A stretch of DNA of 41,818 nt. It comes from an uncultured Chitinophagaceae bacterium. Lineage in GTDB: Bacteria; Bacteroidota; Bacteroidia; Chitinophagales; Chitinophagaceae. This document shows positions 1,665-31,034 of this stretch, in pieces. A model generated the notes under the pieces. That model was not told the DNA's origin and searched no databases. It worked only from the letters and a program-made list of their open reading frames with translations. The translations under genes and the position numbers were made by a program. Positions within the stretch are counted from its first letter, which is position 1; each line of letters begins with the position of its first letter. The stretch spans positions 1 through 41,818 of the forward strand of contig CAIVCF010000152.1 of assembly GCA_903904335.1 (NCBI GenBank), given 5' to 3'.

Positions 1665-2165
1665 ATGGCAAAAGCAGGAAAAACAGAACAATCCACTAAA
1701 GAACATTTATTGATGGATGAGATTGACTTCTCTATTTTGAAATTATTACAGCAAAATGCAAGGGCAACGGTGAAAGAAATTGCTGATAAAGTACATTTAA
1801 GTACAACGCCGGTTCATGAAAGGATCAAGTGGATGGAAAAGGCAGGAGTGATCAAACAATACGCAACATTGGTGGATCATTCAAAAGTGAAGAAGGGATT
1901 AATGGTGATCTGTTATGTTTCACTGAAGCAACATAATAAGAACGCAGGATCAAAATTCATTAAAAGTATTTTGGAAATGAATGAAGTGATCGAGTGTTAT
2001 AATATTTCCGGTGAATTTGATTTTATGTTGAAAGTGGTTGCAGAAAGCATGGATGCCTATTATGATTTTCATGTGAACAAATTAAGTCAGGCAGAAAATA
2101 TAGGTCATGTGCAAAGTGTGTTTGTGATGGGAATCATTAAGCAGACACATGTATTGGTTTATTAA
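1665..2165 (+). CDS. Lrp/AsnC-family transcriptional regulator
   Basis: The protein has up to 166 residues. An N-terminal AsnC winged helix-turn-helix (about residues 17-70, [16 protein letters not shown] then [18 protein letters not shown]) is followed by a C-terminal RAM/ligand-binding domain (about 85-160, with GEFDFMLKV). Proteins of this family bind amino acids or similar small molecules and control nearby and distant genes as dimers or octamers. A second ATG at 1713 (MDEIDF) gives the usual family N-terminus, so the first 16 residues may not be made. The gene is divergent from ahcY across 117 bases, which makes ahcY a candidate target; that is inference. A heptad repeat array starts on the last base of its stop codon. 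Confidence 0.9.
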
Positions 2166-2218
2166 GATTTGAAATTTGAGATTTTTAATTTATGATTAGT
2201 GTGAAGCAATTTCAAATC
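2165..2218. repeat. Heptanucleotide repeat array with inverted partner
   Basis: From 2165 the sequence runs in 7-base units (AGATTTG, AAATTTG, AGATTTT, TAATTTA, TGATTAG). An 11-base stretch, GATTTGAAATT at 2166-2176, returns inverted as AATTTCAAATC at 2208-2218. The array begins on the last base of the lrp stop and lies between convergent genes, so the hairpin may also end transcription. Confidence 0.6.
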
Positions 2219-3336: not shown

Positions 3337-6033
3337 TTACAAATTAGCTAATGATTCTTCAATGGTTTTTATTCTTGCTTCTGCATCGGTCTGTTTTTTT
3401 TGTTCCAATGCGATCACTTCGGGCTTTGCATTTTGAACAAAACGTTCGTTGCTTAATTTTTTAATAACAGATTGAAGAAAACTTTTTTGATGTTCGAGGT
3501 CTTTTAATAGATCTGTTTTTAATGAAACCGAATCTAATTGTTTTTCCGATTCAATATAAAACTTATCTTTTTCAACGGCAACGACAATTGTGTTTGCTAC
3601 AGATTCTGAAACAATAGTGATTTGTTTCGCATTGATTTGTTTCGCTAAAATAGATTGTATGCTTTGATACATTTTATTTTCTGCTGTTTGCAGATGAAGT
3701 GTGATTTGATCCTTCGGCTTAATCTGATTTTTATTTCTCGCATCACGGATAGCAGTGATCACTTCTTTCAATAGATTTCCCTGTGCCAAAATTGTTGACT
3801 GTGGACTATTGACCCTTGATTGTTGTTTCACACAGAGATCATCATCCTGTTCTTTCAATAAATGATAGATCTCTTCTGTAACGAATGGTATGAAAGGATG
3901 TAACAATTGAAGTAATTCATTAAAATATTCCACTGTTTTATTGTAAACAGAAGCATCTATGGGTTGCTCAAATCCGGGTTTTATCCACTCCAAATACCAA
4001 CTGCAGAAATCATCCCATACTAAAGAATAAATAACTTTTAATGCTTCACTTAAACGGAATTGTTTCATTAATCCATTCACTTCAATTTTTACTTCATTCA
4101 ATCTATTCTCAAACCAAGTCACAGCAAAATCGTTAGTCGTGAATCGTGAATCGCCAGTATGTTGTTGTGACTCGCGATTATCAATTACCGATTGACGGCT
4201 TTCCCATAATTTCACCAACTTCAAGGCATTCCATAATTTATTATTGAAGTTTCTTCCTTGTTCCAAACTGCTTTCATCAAACATCAGATCATTTCCTGCA
4301 GGAGAGGAGAACATGATGCCGAAACGCACTGCGTCTGCTCCGTATTTATCGATCAACTCTAATAAGTCAGGTGAGTTGCCTAATTGCTTGCTCATCTTTC
4401 TGCCCAACTTATCACGAACCATTCCCGTGAAGTACACATCTTTAAATGGCAATTGATGTTTGTATTCATATCCTGCCATGATCATCCGCGCTACCCAGAA
4501 AAAAATGATATCCTGACCGGTAACCAATGTTGTGGTTGGATAATAGTATTCAACATCATTATTTCCCGGATTACTGATGCCCTTGAAAACTTCCATCGGC
4601 CAAAGCCAAGATGAGAACCAGGTATCTAAGCAATCTTCGTCTTGTTTCAAAGGACTGTGGACTGTAGACGGTTGACCGTATTTGACTTGATATAATTTCT
4701 CTGCTTCTTCTTTATTTGATGCAACAACATAATTTCCATCCTCATCATACCATGCAGGAATTTGTTGTCCCCACCAAAGCTGACGGGAGATACACCAATC
4801 CTTAATATTATTCAACCAATGACTGTAAGTGTTCTTTGTTTTTTCGGGATGAAATTTAATTTCATCATTCATCACAGCAGATAAGGTTTCAGGATTTCTG
4901 TTCAGGAATTCTTTCATGTTCATGAACCATTGCAAACTCAATCGACTTTCAATCACAGCACCTGTTCTTTCGCTGGTTCCAACCTGTCCTTTGTAATCTT
5001 CTATTTTTTCGATCTGACCTAGTGCATGAATATCTTCAACTATTTTCTTTCGCAAGGCAAATCTGTCAACACCATTATAAGAAAGAACCAAAGGAGATGG
5101 ATGATCGTCAATTAATTCTTCAGCAGTAAATTTTCCTTCAGCATCCAATGTATTCAATGCTTTCAGATTATGTTTCTTGCCTAATTCGTTATCGTTTTTA
5201 TCATGTGCAGGCGTGATCTTCAACGCACCAGTTCCAAATTCCGCATCTACATATTCATCAGCAATAATGGGAATTTTTCTATTGATGATGGGAACGATCA
5301 CTTCTTTGCCGATCCATTTTTTATAACGTAGATCGTTTGGATGAACACAAATAGCAACATCTCCCAAGATCGTTTCCGGTCTGGTGGTAGCAACCATCAT
5401 GAATTTGCTGCTGTCATCAACAAAGGGATATTTTACAAAATATAATTTGCTGTCGATATCTTTAAAAATAACTTCTTCGTCACTTAGTGCAGTTTTACCA
5501 ACAGGATCCCAGTTCACCATTCTTAATCCGCGATAAATGATTCCTTTGTTGTAGAGATCAATAAACACTTTGATCACACTCTTATAATAATCCTCATCCA
5601 TAGTGAATGATGTCCTGTTCCAATCCAAACTGCAACCCAATTTTTTCAATTGCTGTAAAATGATACCACCGTATTTCTCTTTCCATTCCCATGCATATTT
5701 CAAAAATTCCTCTCTGCTTAATGATGACTTTGCAATTCCTCTTTCACGCAGCATCGCTACAACCTTTGCTTCTGTTGCAATAGATGCATGGTCTGTTCCC
5801 GGAACCCAGCATGCATTTTTGCCTTGCATTCTTGCCCTGCGGATCAAAATATCTTGAATAGTATTATTAAGGCAGTGCCCCATGTGTAATACTCCGGTAA
5901 CATTAGGCGGGGGAATTACAATTGTATAAGGTTCGCGTTCATCAGGTGTGCTGTTGAAATAACCTTTTGCCAACCAGTGTTCATACCACCTGGTTTCTAT
6001 TTCATTGGGTATATAATTCTTGCTTAGTTCCAT
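3337..6033 (-). CDS. valS: Valine-tRNA ligase
   Basis: The protein has 898 residues and charges tRNA-Val. A class I catalytic core carries HMGH (50-53, HIGH motif) and KMSKQ (546-550, KMSKS motif). In between lies the editing domain, with TTRPETILGD and GTGALKITPAHD. WFSSWLWP and the anticodon-binding helices follow, and the C-terminal arm (about 830-898) is coiled coil. Three linkers are encoded by heptanucleotide repeat arrays (4652-4679, 4130-4198, 3789-3823), giving low-complexity Ser/Gln/Thr/Asn peptides such as HSPLKQD and DSRFTTND. They sit between conserved blocks, and the frame is open throughout, so the enzyme should be functional. It heads an operon with the PAP2 and GNAT genes. 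Confidence 0.97.
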   Translation of the reverse strand: MELSKNYIPNEIETRWYEHWLAKGYFNSTPDEREPYTIVIPPPNVTGVLHMGHCLNNTIQDILIRRARMQGKNACWVPGTDHASIATEAKVVAMLRERGIAKSSLSREEFLKYAWEWKEKYGGIILQQLKKLGCSLDWNRTSFTMDEDYYKSVIKVFIDLYNKGIIYRGLRMVNWDPVGKTALSDEEVIFKDIDSKLYFVKYPFVDDSSKFMMVATTRPETILGDVAICVHPNDLRYKKWIGKEVIVPIINRKIPIIADEYVDAEFGTGALKITPAHDKNDNELGKKHNLKALNTLDAEGKFTAEELIDDHPSPLVLSYNGVDRFALRKKIVEDIHALGQIEKIEDYKGQVGTSERTGAVIESRLSLQWFMNMKEFLNRNPETLSAVMNDEIKFHPEKTKNTYSHWLNNIKDWCISRQLWWGQQIPAWYDEDGNYVVASNKEEAEKLYQVKYGQPSTVHSPLKQDEDCLDTWFSSWLWPMEVFKGISNPGNNDVEYYYPTTTLVTGQDIIFFWVARMIMAGYEYKHQLPFKDVYFTGMVRDKLGRKMSKQLGNSPDLLELIDKYGADAVRFGIMFSSPAGNDLMFDESSLEQGRNFNNKLWNALKLVKLWESRQSVIDNRESQQHTGDSRFTTNDFAVTWFENRLNEVKIEVNGLMKQFRLSEALKVIYSLVWDDFCSWYLEWIKPGFEQPIDASVYNKTVEYFNELLQLLHPFIPFVTEEIYHLLKEQDDDLCVKQQSRVNSPQSTILAQGNLLKEVITAIRDARNKNQIKPKDQITLHLQTAENKMYQSIQSILAKQINAKQITIVSESVANTIVVAVEKDKFYIESEKQLDSVSLKTDLLKDLEHQKSFLQSVIKKLSNERFVQNAKPEVIALEQKKQTDAEARIKTIEESLANL
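3789..3823. repeat. Intragenic heptad array C in valS
   Basis: There are five 7-base units on the plus strand (AAATTGT, TGACTGT, GGACTAT, TGACCCT, TGATTGT), consensus NGACNGT. They encode a Ser/Gln/Asn-rich linker just before the anticodon-binding region. The units are of the same type as those at 4652-4679. Confidence 0.6.
4130..4198. repeat. Intragenic inverted heptad array in valS, 69 bases in frame
   Basis: Four plus-strand TCGNNAR units (4130-4157: TCGTTAG, TCGTGAA twice, TCGCCAG) are followed by a 6-base spacer and five units in the opposite orientation (4164-4198, including CTCGCGA and TTACCGA). The total is 69 bases, 23 codons, so the valS frame is kept. The unit type and polarity match the arrays around the four-helix-bundle gene at 29557-30051. 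Confidence 0.75.
4652..4679. repeat. Intragenic heptad array B in valS
   Basis: Four 7-base units on the plus strand (GGACTGT twice, AGACGGT, TGACCGT), consensus NGACNGT. They encode the variable linker directly before the conserved QDEDCLDTWFSS block of ValRS. Confidence 0.65.
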
Positions 6034-27036: not shown

Positions 27037-27492
27037 TTAATTGTTCTTCAACATTTTCACTACCACTTTGTCTATCGGCAAAGAAACAGTGGCTTCATTC
27101 AGATTATTCCATTCTATCCAACGGAATACTTCGCTTTCACCGTTCGCATCTGCAACCTGATGCGGAGAAAAAAGAAACGGAATATCATGTGTGATTAATT
27201 CTATCGGTTCATCTGCATGAGCAAAATAATAAATGCTTAAGATCTGATCTGTATTATTGAATGCGGAGATCTGAAAAAAATCGGTAGTGTAAATATGCTC
27301 CCCGATTGTTACATCTAAATTCGTTTCTTCCTTGAATTCCCTTTTTAAACAATCTCTTGTGCCTTCGCCGAATTCCAATCCGCCGCCGGGAAATTTGGTA
27401 AAATAATTTCCACGAATGAATTCATCACTCACTAAAACCCTTTTCTTGCTGTCTATTAAAATTCCGTACACTCTTACATTAAATAACGGCAT
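27037..27492 (-). CDS. NUDIX hydrolase
   Basis: The protein has 151 residues. The Nudix box is seen as GGLEFGEGTRDCLKREFKEETNLDV (about 37-61), matching G-x5-E-x7-REUxEExGU apart from TN at the end of the helix, where the catalytic Glu pair in KEE is intact. The family cleaves nucleoside diphosphates linked to another group; the substrate is not predictable. A heptad repeat array begins 4 bases upstream of its ATG and would form most of its leader, an unusual position for the ribosome-loading region. Confidence 0.93.
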   Translation of the reverse strand: MPLFNVRVYGILIDSKKRVLVSDEFIRGNYFTKFPGGGLEFGEGTRDCLKREFKEETNLDVTIGEHIYTTDFFQISAFNNTDQILSIYYFAHADEPIELITHDIPFLFSPHQVADANGESEVFRWIEWNNLNEATVSLPIDKVVVKMLKNN

Positions 27493-27495
27493 GTG

Positions 27496-27537
27496 TAATT
27501 CTTAATTCTTAATTATCAATTCATAATTATTATTCAT
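27496..27537. repeat. AT-rich heptad array between NUDIX and VOC genes
   Basis: Six consecutive 7-base units on the plus strand: TAATTCT twice, TAATTAT, CAATTCA, TAATTAT, TATTCAT. The array reaches from 4 bases before the NUDIX start to the stop codon of the VOC gene, filling the whole gap. Confidence 0.75.
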
Positions 27538-28774: not shown

Positions 28775-29554
28775 TTAAATTTCTATTTCTCCCTTAAATA
28801 CAAATGTTGCCGGTCCGCAAAGCCATACATCTTCAAAACTTGTTTCACCGGTTTTATTGAATGCAACTGCTAAATTTCCTCCTAAGGTTTTTATGTCAAT
28901 CCGATCTGTACCGATTTTTTTTTGAGCAAAAACCAATGCAGCAGCGGTTACACCGGTGCCGCAACTGAATGTTTCATTTTCTACACCACGTTCGTAAGTG
29001 CGGACTGTGATTTTATTTTTATCAGTTTGTTCTACAAAATTCACATTGATCCCTTCGGCTGCAAATTCTTTGCTGTAACGTATTTCATGACCTTGTTTGT
29101 AAACATCCATATCCATCACATGGCTGACTGATTTTATAAAATGCGGAGAACCTGTATTTAATATAAATGAATCCTGATATTTTTTAATTTCGGTTACATT
29201 CTTCATTTTTAAATTGATCCAGCCATTTTCTGCAAATTCAGATTCATGATCTCCGTCTATAGCAATGAATTTGTATTTCTCTTTTTTGATGCCCCTGTCA
29301 AAAGCGAATTTTGTCAAACATCTGCCACCGTTACCGCACATACTGCTTTCATTCCCATCGGCATTATAATATTTCATTTCAAAATCATAACCGTCTTTCA
29401 GATTCAACAACATCAAACCATCTGCACCAATGCCAAATCTTCTGTCGCAGAGTTTATTGATCTGTTCCATATTTAATGAGATCGGATGTACTCTGTTATC
29501 GAGAATAACAAAATCATTTCCTGTTCCTTGATATTTATAGAAATTTAGTTGCAT
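28775..29554 (-). CDS. dapF: Diaminopimelate epimerase
   Basis: The protein has 259 residues and converts LL- to meso-diaminopimelate for lysine and peptidoglycan. Both active-site cysteines are present: Cys73 in SMCGNGGRC and Cys198 in FSCGTGVTAAA. The N-terminus MQLNFYKYQGTGNDFVILDN is the conserved start. Upstream, the first TCGNNAR heptad array begins 2 bases from the ATG, so the normal leader and ribosome-entry region is built from repeat sequence. It leads the run DoxX, DUF1801 and VOC. Confidence 0.96.
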   Translation of the reverse strand: MQLNFYKYQGTGNDFVILDNRVHPISLNMEQINKLCDRRFGIGADGLMLLNLKDGYDFEMKYYNADGNESSMCGNGGRCLTKFAFDRGIKKEKYKFIAIDGDHESEFAENGWINLKMKNVTEIKKYQDSFILNTGSPHFIKSVSHVMDMDVYKQGHEIRYSKEFAAEGINVNFVEQTDKNKITVRTYERGVENETFSCGTGVTAAALVFAQKKIGTDRIDIKTLGGNLAVAFNKTGETSFEDVWLCGPATFVFKGEIEI

Positions 29555-29556
29555 AA

Positions 29557-29584
29557 TCGTAAGTCGTGAATCGAGAGTCGCAAG
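29557..29584 (+). repeat. Left heptad array (TCGNNAR x4)
   Basis: Four units in perfect 7-base phase: TCGTAAG, TCGTGAA, TCGAGAG, TCGCAAG. It begins 2 bases upstream of the dapF start codon. Confidence 0.75.
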
Positions 29585-29604
29585 TTTTGCAGCTTCAATT
29601 TTTA

Positions 29605-29964
29605 TTATTCTTTTGTTTTTTCAATCATTTTACTCAACATCATAAATGAACGTTCCAGGTAACTTTCTAATTCTTTAATATGATTGTTCTGTAAATATTG
29701 TAATATAAATGATATTTCAAGTTGTGTATCTATCTCAACAAGAGAGCTTCTTGAAATTTCGAAGAACCTCACTTTCTCAGTTTTTGATTTTCTTGCACAG
29801 CCTTCAGCGATATTGCTGCAAACTGAAATGGCCGCCCTTCGTAATTGATTGGTCAAAACATATCTTTCATTAACAGGAAACTGTTCTGTTTGCTTATAAA
29901 CTTCTTCAACAAGTTTTATCGAAATCTGATAAACATCTAATCTTTTGTGAGACAATTTCAGCAT
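29605..29964 (-). CDS. Four-helix-bundle protein (23S rRNA intervening-sequence/S23 family)
   Basis: The protein has 119 residues, all helical. HKRLDVYQISIKLVEEVY, NQLRRAAISVCSNIAEGCARKSKTEKVRFFEISRSSLVEIDTQLEI and the closing helix match the family first found as ORFs in 23S rRNA intervening sequences and related to the Avd accessory proteins of diversity-generating retroelements. It is probably a homo-oligomer binding nucleic acid; the role of chromosomal solo copies is unknown. No rRNA gene, reverse transcriptase or template repeat is in the window. It is bounded by inverted heptad arrays and interrupts an otherwise ordinary metabolic gene run. Confidence 0.93.
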   Translation of the reverse strand: MLKLSHKRLDVYQISIKLVEEVYKQTEQFPVNERYVLTNQLRRAAISVCSNIAEGCARKSKTEKVRFFEISRSSLVEIDTQLEISFILQYLQNNHIKELESYLERSFMMLSKMIEKTKE

Positions 29965-30023
29965 AAAATATAGCAGTTTATCTCATAAAAATAACTAATA
30001 GACTTTACAAAGAACGGTCACTA

Positions 30024-30051
30024 CTTGCGATTTCCGATTTTCGACTCGCGT
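30024..30051 (-). repeat. Right heptad array (inverted TCGNNAR x4)
   Basis: Four units in 7-base phase on the plus strand: CTTGCGA, TTTCCGA, TTTTCGA, CTCGCGT. These are inverted copies of the left array. The last base is the final base of the phosphorylase stop codon. Confidence 0.7.
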
Positions 30052-30923
30052 TATATTCCTTCAATGATATTTAAACTTTTAACGATCAACTTTTCAACCG
30101 CTGCTTTCCCATCCTTACTGAATTCTTTTTTTACACGATTCGCAATAATAGCATTCAAACTTAAACAAGAATGTCCCAACAATTTCCCCAAGCCATAAAT
30201 GGCACTCGTTTCCATTTCGAAATTACTGATAAAATGATTGCCGAAACGAAAGCTGGATAAGCGTTCTATTAATAATGGATTGGCTAACCCCAAACGAAGC
30301 ACTCTTCCTTGCGGACCATAAAAACCCGGGCATGTAGCAGTAATGCCATGATGAAACCCATCCACAAAATGTTTTTTTACTGAAGCACCTGCAGTAACAA
30401 CATAAGGCTCGATCTTTCCGCTCAGTTGCGTATGCGCAATGAATTGCTGCAACATCTGTTGTTCTTCTTCATTACTTTCAAAACGATAAAAGTGCAACAG
30501 ATTATCCAATCCCAAACCATGTGTGCCTGCAACAAAACTGTCAACCGGAATATCTGCCTGCAAAGAACCCGATGTACCGATACGCAAAATAGTAAGATGT
30601 GTAAGATCACTCTTCACGAGTCTTGTTTCAAAATCAATATTCACCAATGCATCCAATTCATTTAATACGATATCAATGTTATCCGGACCAATGCCTGTTG
30701 AAATAACAGTGATCCTTTTTTTGCCTACATAACCGGTTGCCGAAACAAATTCGCGGTGCTGTTGCTCCACTTCAATGGAATCAAAATGTTTGCTTATTTC
30801 TTTTACTCTGTCAGGGTCGCCTACAGTAATAATAGTATTCGCCAATTCATCGGGCCTGAGATTCACATGGTACAATGCACCACGGTCATTAATGATCAAT
30901 TCTGATTCTGCAATTCTGCTCAT
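30051..30923 (-). CDS. Nucleoside phosphorylase (uridine phosphorylase-like)
   Basis: The protein has 290 residues of the PNP/UDP family, which split nucleosides with phosphate into base and ribose-1-phosphate. VGDPDRVKEIS (about 34-44, phosphate site), STGIGPDNIDIVLNEL, ILRIGTSGSLQADIP (about 112-125) and ISNFEMETSAIYGLGKLLGH (substrate ribose/base site) are seen. Length and blocks suit uridine phosphorylase-like enzymes, but base specificity is not certain. The start MSRIAESELI replaces a 25-codon longer frame with poor composition. The cassette with the four-helix gene abuts its stop codon directly. Confidence 0.9.
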   Translation of the reverse strand: MSRIAESELIINDRGALYHVNLRPDELANTIITVGDPDRVKEISKHFDSIEVEQQHREFVSATGYVGKKRITVISTGIGPDNIDIVLNELDALVNIDFETRLVKSDLTHLTILRIGTSGSLQADIPVDSFVAGTHGLGLDNLLHFYRFESNEEEQQMLQQFIAHTQLSGKIEPYVVTAGASVKKHFVDGFHHGITATCPGFYGPQGRVLRLGLANPLLIERLSSFRFGNHFISNFEMETSAIYGLGKLLGHSCLSLNAIIANRVKKEFSKDGKAAVEKLIVKSLNIIEGI

Positions 30924-31034
30924 ACAAAAATTTTGAACGGTGAATTTATGCAAATGTGCAGATATAAAAGTTGTAAAAAGATGAATGGCAATGACCACAA
31001 GTCATAAAAACATTTGATGATTCCTATTATCAAA

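Follow-up and report, generated by a model that had tools for sequence, protein, structure and literature searches.

The window analysed here, a stretch of 41,818 nucleotides from an uncultured Chitinophagaceae bacterium, raises the question of why a single small gene between dapF and a phosphorylase gene is framed by repeats with a period of seven bases. All elements of this locus are encoded on the minus strand. A gene for a protein of 119 residues (29605..29964), the single open reading frame (ORF) between the repeats, is bordered by a downstream arm (29557..29584) and an upstream arm (30021..30050), with dapF (28775..29554) as the downstream host gene and a uridine-phosphorylase-like member of the nucleoside phosphorylase superfamily (30051..30998) as the upstream host gene. 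The downstream arm reads, in plus-strand letters, TCGTAAG TCGTGAA TCGAGAG TCGCAAG, with TCG at 29557, 29564, 29571 and 29578, exactly 7 nt apart. The upstream arm is its inverse, with the minus-strand heptads AGTCGAA, AATCGGA, AATCGCA and AGTAGTG, and CGA, the inverse of TCG, recurs on the plus strand at 30028, 30035 and 30042. In 60-nt stretches both sides score 17/28 in self-match at lag 7 (p = 0.002 for the downstream arm and 0 of 1000 for the upstream arm in dinucleotide shuffles), and the inverted match between the two arms is 19/24 (p = 0.001 in dinucleotide shuffles). The downstream array begins 2 nt ahead of the dapF start codon and the upstream array extends to, and abuts, the phosphorylase stop codon (30051-30053). 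The coordinates agree with the initial annotation, in which the arrays were said to fill the space from the dapF start to the phosphorylase stop. The heptad is better written AATCGNR, along the sense strand of the enclosed gene.

The enclosed protein matches PF05635 (E-value 1.6e-33) and TIGR02436 (8.5e-31), which identifies it as a four-helix-bundle protein of the S23, or 23S rRNA-intervening-sequence, type. Its match to the Avd model of diversity-generating retroelements (DGRs), DivGenRetAVD, is far weaker (E-value 9.1e-5, 22.7 bits against a model cut-off of 80). The family is common and, to our knowledge, has no known function. As RNA, the two arms are predicted to form a closing stem in which about 5 bp alternate with small internal loops every 7 nt, the mismatches between the arms being themselves periodic and recurring at lags 7 and 14. 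The predicted fold of the whole cassette is only modestly unusual (z -2.2). The best reading of the data presented below is that this cassette is probably one copy of a widespread insertable element, similar to the intervening sequences (IVSs) of rRNA, that consists of an S23 (PF05635) gene with two inverted arrays of degenerate heptamers as its ends, and that such elements form the wider family behind the rRNA IVSs.

The same architecture recurs throughout the host genome (G000; other sampled genomes are numbered G001 and so on, and loci carry L numbers). This assembly (3.11 Mb in 261 contigs) contains eight PF05635 genes, and inspection by eye places 8/8 of them between inverted heptad arrays, each with a heptad of its own (AGCTNTA, GTTTCAG, GTTCAAG and ATTTGAG among them). 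A lag spectrum was calculated for 147 S23 loci from order-level relatives, a phylum sample and 80 named contigs, the last from Bacteroidota, Planctomycetota, Chloroflexi, Acidobacteriota, Verrucomicrobiota, Omnitrophota, a Ruminococcus, an archaeon and others. Peaks are confined to lags 7, 14 and 21 and appear on both sides of the gene and in all three samples: the mean best match at these lags is 0.57-0.66, 0.51-0.58 and 0.46-0.53, respectively, compared with 0.38-0.49 for other lags and for controls 1 kb away, the latter being flat. Within these loci, 62% of same-locus arm pairs reach an inverted match of at least 18/24 versus 2% of pairs from different loci, and 8% of same-locus arms reach this level when matched directly instead of inverted.

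A larger set of 185 S23 loci, covering many phyla as well as plasmids and relatives, was compared with 302 other genes from the same S23-bearing genomes. Arrays or matching inverted arms are present by any measure at 85% of the S23 loci and 10% of the control genes, and an inverted match of at least 18 at 67% and 3%, respectively. Flanking arrays are therefore far above background among homologs in both samples, the outcome on which the initial annotation had made its proposal depend, and the placement of an S23 gene between inverted arrays holds across phyla. By eye, cyanobacterial plasmids and viral contigs display the same array-S23-array anatomy. About 15% of S23 loci have no array by the tests applied, several of these lying in tight plasmid operons. 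In RNA duplex pairing, a locus's own arms are the best of six at 105/186 loci, against 31 expected. Ordinary leader or terminator hairpins were rejected as an explanation, given the restriction to lag 7, the absence from controls and the lack of any Rfam match on the arms. A conserved motif was likewise rejected, since the heptad differs from one S23 locus to the next. Thus, of the cassette proposed at the outset, the gene with its arrays and the filled, gene-less and empty sites described below stand, whereas TCGNNAR as a single family-wide motif does not; the heptads are locus-specific and drifting.

The origin of rRNA IVSs has been unclear for decades. The IVS of Coxiella burnetii 23S rRNA contains an S23p ORF enclosed by terminal inverted repeats, which pair as a 28-bp stem, with three tandem heptamers (GACAGAT) upstream of the ORF whose copy number differs between strains; the ORF is subject to decay and the IVS has been termed selfish or parasitic (PMC4990558). 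The window cassette likewise encodes an S23/IVP (PF05635) protein, and its ORF lies between terminal inverted repeats that can pair as a stem. However, known IVSs reside in rRNA genes, whereas the S23 cassettes described here lie between protein genes and, without the gene, inside valS; they have locus-specific heptad arrays as both arms and occur in many phyla, on plasmids and in viral contigs. The window cassette is flanked by dapF and the phosphorylase gene, and an Rfam scan of the window and 19 loci returned no rRNA. Since the protein and stem features of an IVS are present and the rRNA location is not, the cassette is termed IVS-like rather than a member of the IVSs. Internal stop codons indicative of decay, like that reported for the Coxiella IVS ORF, were seen in several S23 genes (L002:1501-1815 and other loci).

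Other repeat systems share part of this anatomy. MITEs, REPIN-RAYT systems and Rickettsia palindromic elements are short hairpins, intergenic or in frame, with a presumed trans-acting protein; they resemble the S23 cassettes and gene-less pairs in these respects and differ in having a fixed palindrome in place of variable heptad-array ends, while no link to a Y1 transposase is found here. The STRR sequences of cyanobacteria are another known case of heptanucleotide repeats. The TAACTGA repeats of Beggiatoaceae, Cyanobacteria and Bacteroidetes are seven-base tandem repeats that are also mostly intergenic, near start codons, but they are direct repeats of one fixed heptamer, for which translational regulation was proposed and an S23 or four-helix protein was not mentioned (PMC4679880). 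In the open-access literature, coverage of which is incomplete so that an earlier report is possible, the Coxiella paper (PMC4990558) was the only one found to link an S23 or four-helix protein with heptamer repeats, and no paper was found that ties S23 genes in general to heptad arrays.

Comparison with relatives shows that one and the same site can be empty, gene-less or filled in related species. The phosphorylase-dapF junction is conserved in the 13 genomes searched. Its gap measures 4 nt in one species of the same genus and 8-16 nt in four other family members, and it is 499, 520 and 602 nt long and contains an S23 gene in G000, G003 and G007, respectively; in G014 it contains an inverted pair without a gene. 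The S23 protein of G007 is 66% identical and sister to those of G000 and G003, with arms that use a different heptad. The hisA-hisF junction is filled in G000 only and is empty in three species of the same genus (hisF 95-96% identical). The empty hisA 3' ends read ATTTCTG ATTTGAA, which are two 7-spaced units of the heptad found in the element at this site in G000, suggesting homology-guided insertion or templating from the target. Empty counterparts in same-genus species also exist for the MCM-enoyl-CoA hydratase, pyrR-pyrB and ABC operon junctions, and at pyrR-pyrB G003 retains arrays of the same heptad from which the S23 gene is gone. The argC-argD junction is occupied by one S23 clade in G001, G012, G015 and G008 and by another in G003, G018 and G014, and the ABC operon junction likewise hosts unrelated S23 clades. 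The gene order is therefore not fixed: sister species show clean empty junctions, a state that the initial annotation had suggested looking for. No clear target-site duplication was visible by eye in the filled and empty pairs (phosphorylase-dapF, hisA-hisF and the other junctions) or in the paralogous cassettes described next. S23 cassettes from four genomes (L029, L268, L281 and L293), representing at least two S23 clades, were also observed at a junction upstream of an apparent pssA (PN.FTLLNLFFG near its start).

Copies at two loci of one genome show the unit together with its inverted ends. Two paralogous cassettes of G009 at unrelated loci (L297 and L299) share homology from AAGTGAGAGG to about TCTCAC, including both arms, and the homology stops outside these limits; the coding part looks more diverged than the arms and leader. 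The viral contigs L396 and L397 differ by a recent tandem duplication that runs through the arrays of an S23 cassette. In one of them, two S23 copies that are ∼99% identical are joined by a hybrid array, and the other has a single copy followed by the same downstream sequence, the repeat unit being 423 nt. Four related viral cassettes all keep the heptad core TCGGC unchanged and vary at its two spacer bases. S23 copies within one genome are mostly old and divergent; movement would therefore be slow or bursty.

The window also contains gene-less arrays, to which no strand is assigned. An inverted heptad pair at 4130..4198 lies in frame within a linker of valS (3337..6033, minus strand), as the initial annotation had recognized in describing the same arrays without the gene. 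It shares the AATCGNR heptad of the window cassette (L004), which is its best heptad match among 87 loci, and its hairpin has an RNA fold z of -2.8. Other species carry other heptads at the same position in valS. A resident S23 locus matches the valS heptad in G000, G003 and G002, as does the S23 locus L283 in G007; no resident match was found for that of G018. An ATTTGAR array between two genes (2162..2201) has the same heptad as the hisA-hisF S23 locus of the host genome (L005). A further array, AATTCTT/AATTATC, fills an intergenic gap (27487..27534), and no resident S23 with this heptad was found.

Counted in sampled 20-kb stretches and the window, with a few of the counted arrays being S23 arms themselves, period-7 arrays are present in 7/9 S23-bearing and 0/7 S23-free genomes (Fisher p 0.003; 490 kb of S23-free sequence), at densities of 0-32 per 100 kb in the former. 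In these stretches, gene-less derivatives are thus found only in genomes with S23 genes. An S23 locus of the same genome is the strictly best heptad match for 13/30 gene-less arrays from eight genomes, against 3.8 expected (binomial p 3e-5), where the 30 include the valS arrays and are not fully independent as many G014 arrays copy one heptad. G014 also has a large gene-less AATTAAG family without a matching resident S23. The restriction of gene-less arrays to S23-bearing genomes and their frequent sharing of a resident heptad are consistent with S23 recognizing or propagating the heptads. The stretches of G014 (L221-L225) contain an exceptional number of gene-less inverted heptad hairpins (32 arrays per 100 kb) with unrelated interiors, in a few heptad families, GTTGAAA, AATTAAG, AGAGTTG and AACGCCT. 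In one of them (L222:16915-17573), inverted AATTAGG arrays surround a different small ORF, whose product is NTF2-like by eye and starts MKDVSVFIQNLYQLF; this may be a form of the element that carries cargo.

Arrays without genes could also be generated passively, by replication slippage and fold-back synthesis at operon junctions, with S23 as a bystander or tolerated in the loops. Heptads that vary freely at two or three positions and the capacity of recombination within arrays to give tandem change would fit such an origin. It is nevertheless improbable given the strong, phylum-wide association with one protein family, the occurrence of period 7 and neither 6 nor 8, the absence of arrays from 490 kb of S23-free genomes and the invariant core with variable spacer kept by the viral cassettes.

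An IVS-like element could operate as follows. It lodges for the most part between operon genes of the same direction, in many cases directly at the stop codon of the upstream gene. Its arms, as RNA or single-stranded DNA, may pair into a stem that is interrupted every 7 bp by a small internal loop. S23, predicted to be a homopentamer with the fold of 2GSC, may bind the heptad stem of its own locus, with a specificity that would co-drift with the heptad. A host-supplied polymerase or strand-transfer activity might, together with S23, help the element and matching gene-less copies to persist and spread; we know of no catalytic domain for strand transfer in S23. In mRNA the stem could also be processed by RNase III, like that of the rRNA IVS. 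Solved structures related to the family include 2GSC and 2RLD, and a toroidal homopentamer is described for the structure of Xanthomonas S23p (Lin et al., 2006, as quoted in PMC4990558). The Avd protein of DGRs is a homologous four-helix protein (PMC10053308) that is recruited together with a reverse transcriptase to structured RNA, which by analogy makes nucleic-acid binding by S23 likely without proving it.

This homology could be taken further: S23 might itself partner a reverse transcriptase, of the kind for which Avd is an essential partner in DGRs, with element RNA copied into cDNA and integrated by heptad homology. The co-directional bias of S23 loci and the two 7-spaced heptad units at the empty hisA 3' end would be expected of such a route. 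We consider it very doubtful, as neither G000 nor G001, each with 8 S23 genes, gave a PF00078 (RVT_1) match, and no pair of template and variable repeats was seen. Membership in the DGRs was rejected on the same absence of a reverse transcriptase from both genomes, and the window protein scores well below the Avd cut-off. Dependence on a RAYT/Y1 transposase was also rejected: G001, with 8 S23 matches, gave no Y1_Tnp match, and the one in G000 is on contig C75, not the contig of the window.

A more far-reaching version of the IVS-like element is advanced tentatively, as a possibility to which we would give somewhat less than even chances. S23/IVP may be the protein half of very widespread minimal mobile elements with self-designed heptad-array ends, each S23 recognizing its own drifting heptad; the array would be copied or taken from the target, as hinted at by hisA-hisF, and gene-less and cargo-bearing copies would be mobilized in trans, without a known transposase or reverse transcriptase. 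The rRNA IVSs would then be a small known corner of this family. Tying the S23 family to inverted heptad arrays suggests a testable role for S23 and for rRNA IVSs, namely that the protein should have the heptad stem as its ligand and that movement of the unit is to be expected. Many bacterial heptanucleotide repeats and small in-frame inserts such as that in valS could be explained in the same way, and the unit provides a minimal element, made of a protein and repeats, whose recognition motif is of its own evolving.

The position of the cassettes within operons bears on a last alternative. The upstream neighbor is co-directional in 136/150 S23 loci and both neighbors are in 119/150. This orientation bias would also suit a domesticated regulatory or RNA-processing module, in which the stem tunes the operon mRNA through RNase III cleavage or attenuation, S23 autoregulates via the stem and apparent mobility is mostly vertical inheritance with losses. 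The better pairing of own arms, the apparent conservation of the arms and leader of L297 and L299 over coding DNA and the frequent occurrence of one S23 clade at one junction (phosphorylase-dapF; argC-argD clade 1) lend it further weight. We regard this explanation as rather unlikely, because the unit is absent in same-genus species (gaps of 4-22 nt), unrelated S23 clades share one junction (argC-argD; the ABC operon) and gene-less pairs with species-specific heptads lie within the valS coding frame.

For the IVS-like element, selection against gene disruption accounts for part of the position bias. Among the 64 loci with an assignable stop and a clear array, the array starts no more than 3 nt from the upstream stop codon in 37, and for 13 of these 37 the heptads run in phase with the stop codon (5.3 expected, p 0.001), which gives modest support, as a hint, to the host stop codon being the point of array nucleation. 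Stop codons in all three frames as the reason for period 7 are weakly indicated (43% versus 27% antisense and 14% shuffled). At L009, L010 and L020, the downstream heptad array seems to cross the argD start codon, and the second codon of argD is ACT, compared with AAA in L013 and L025.
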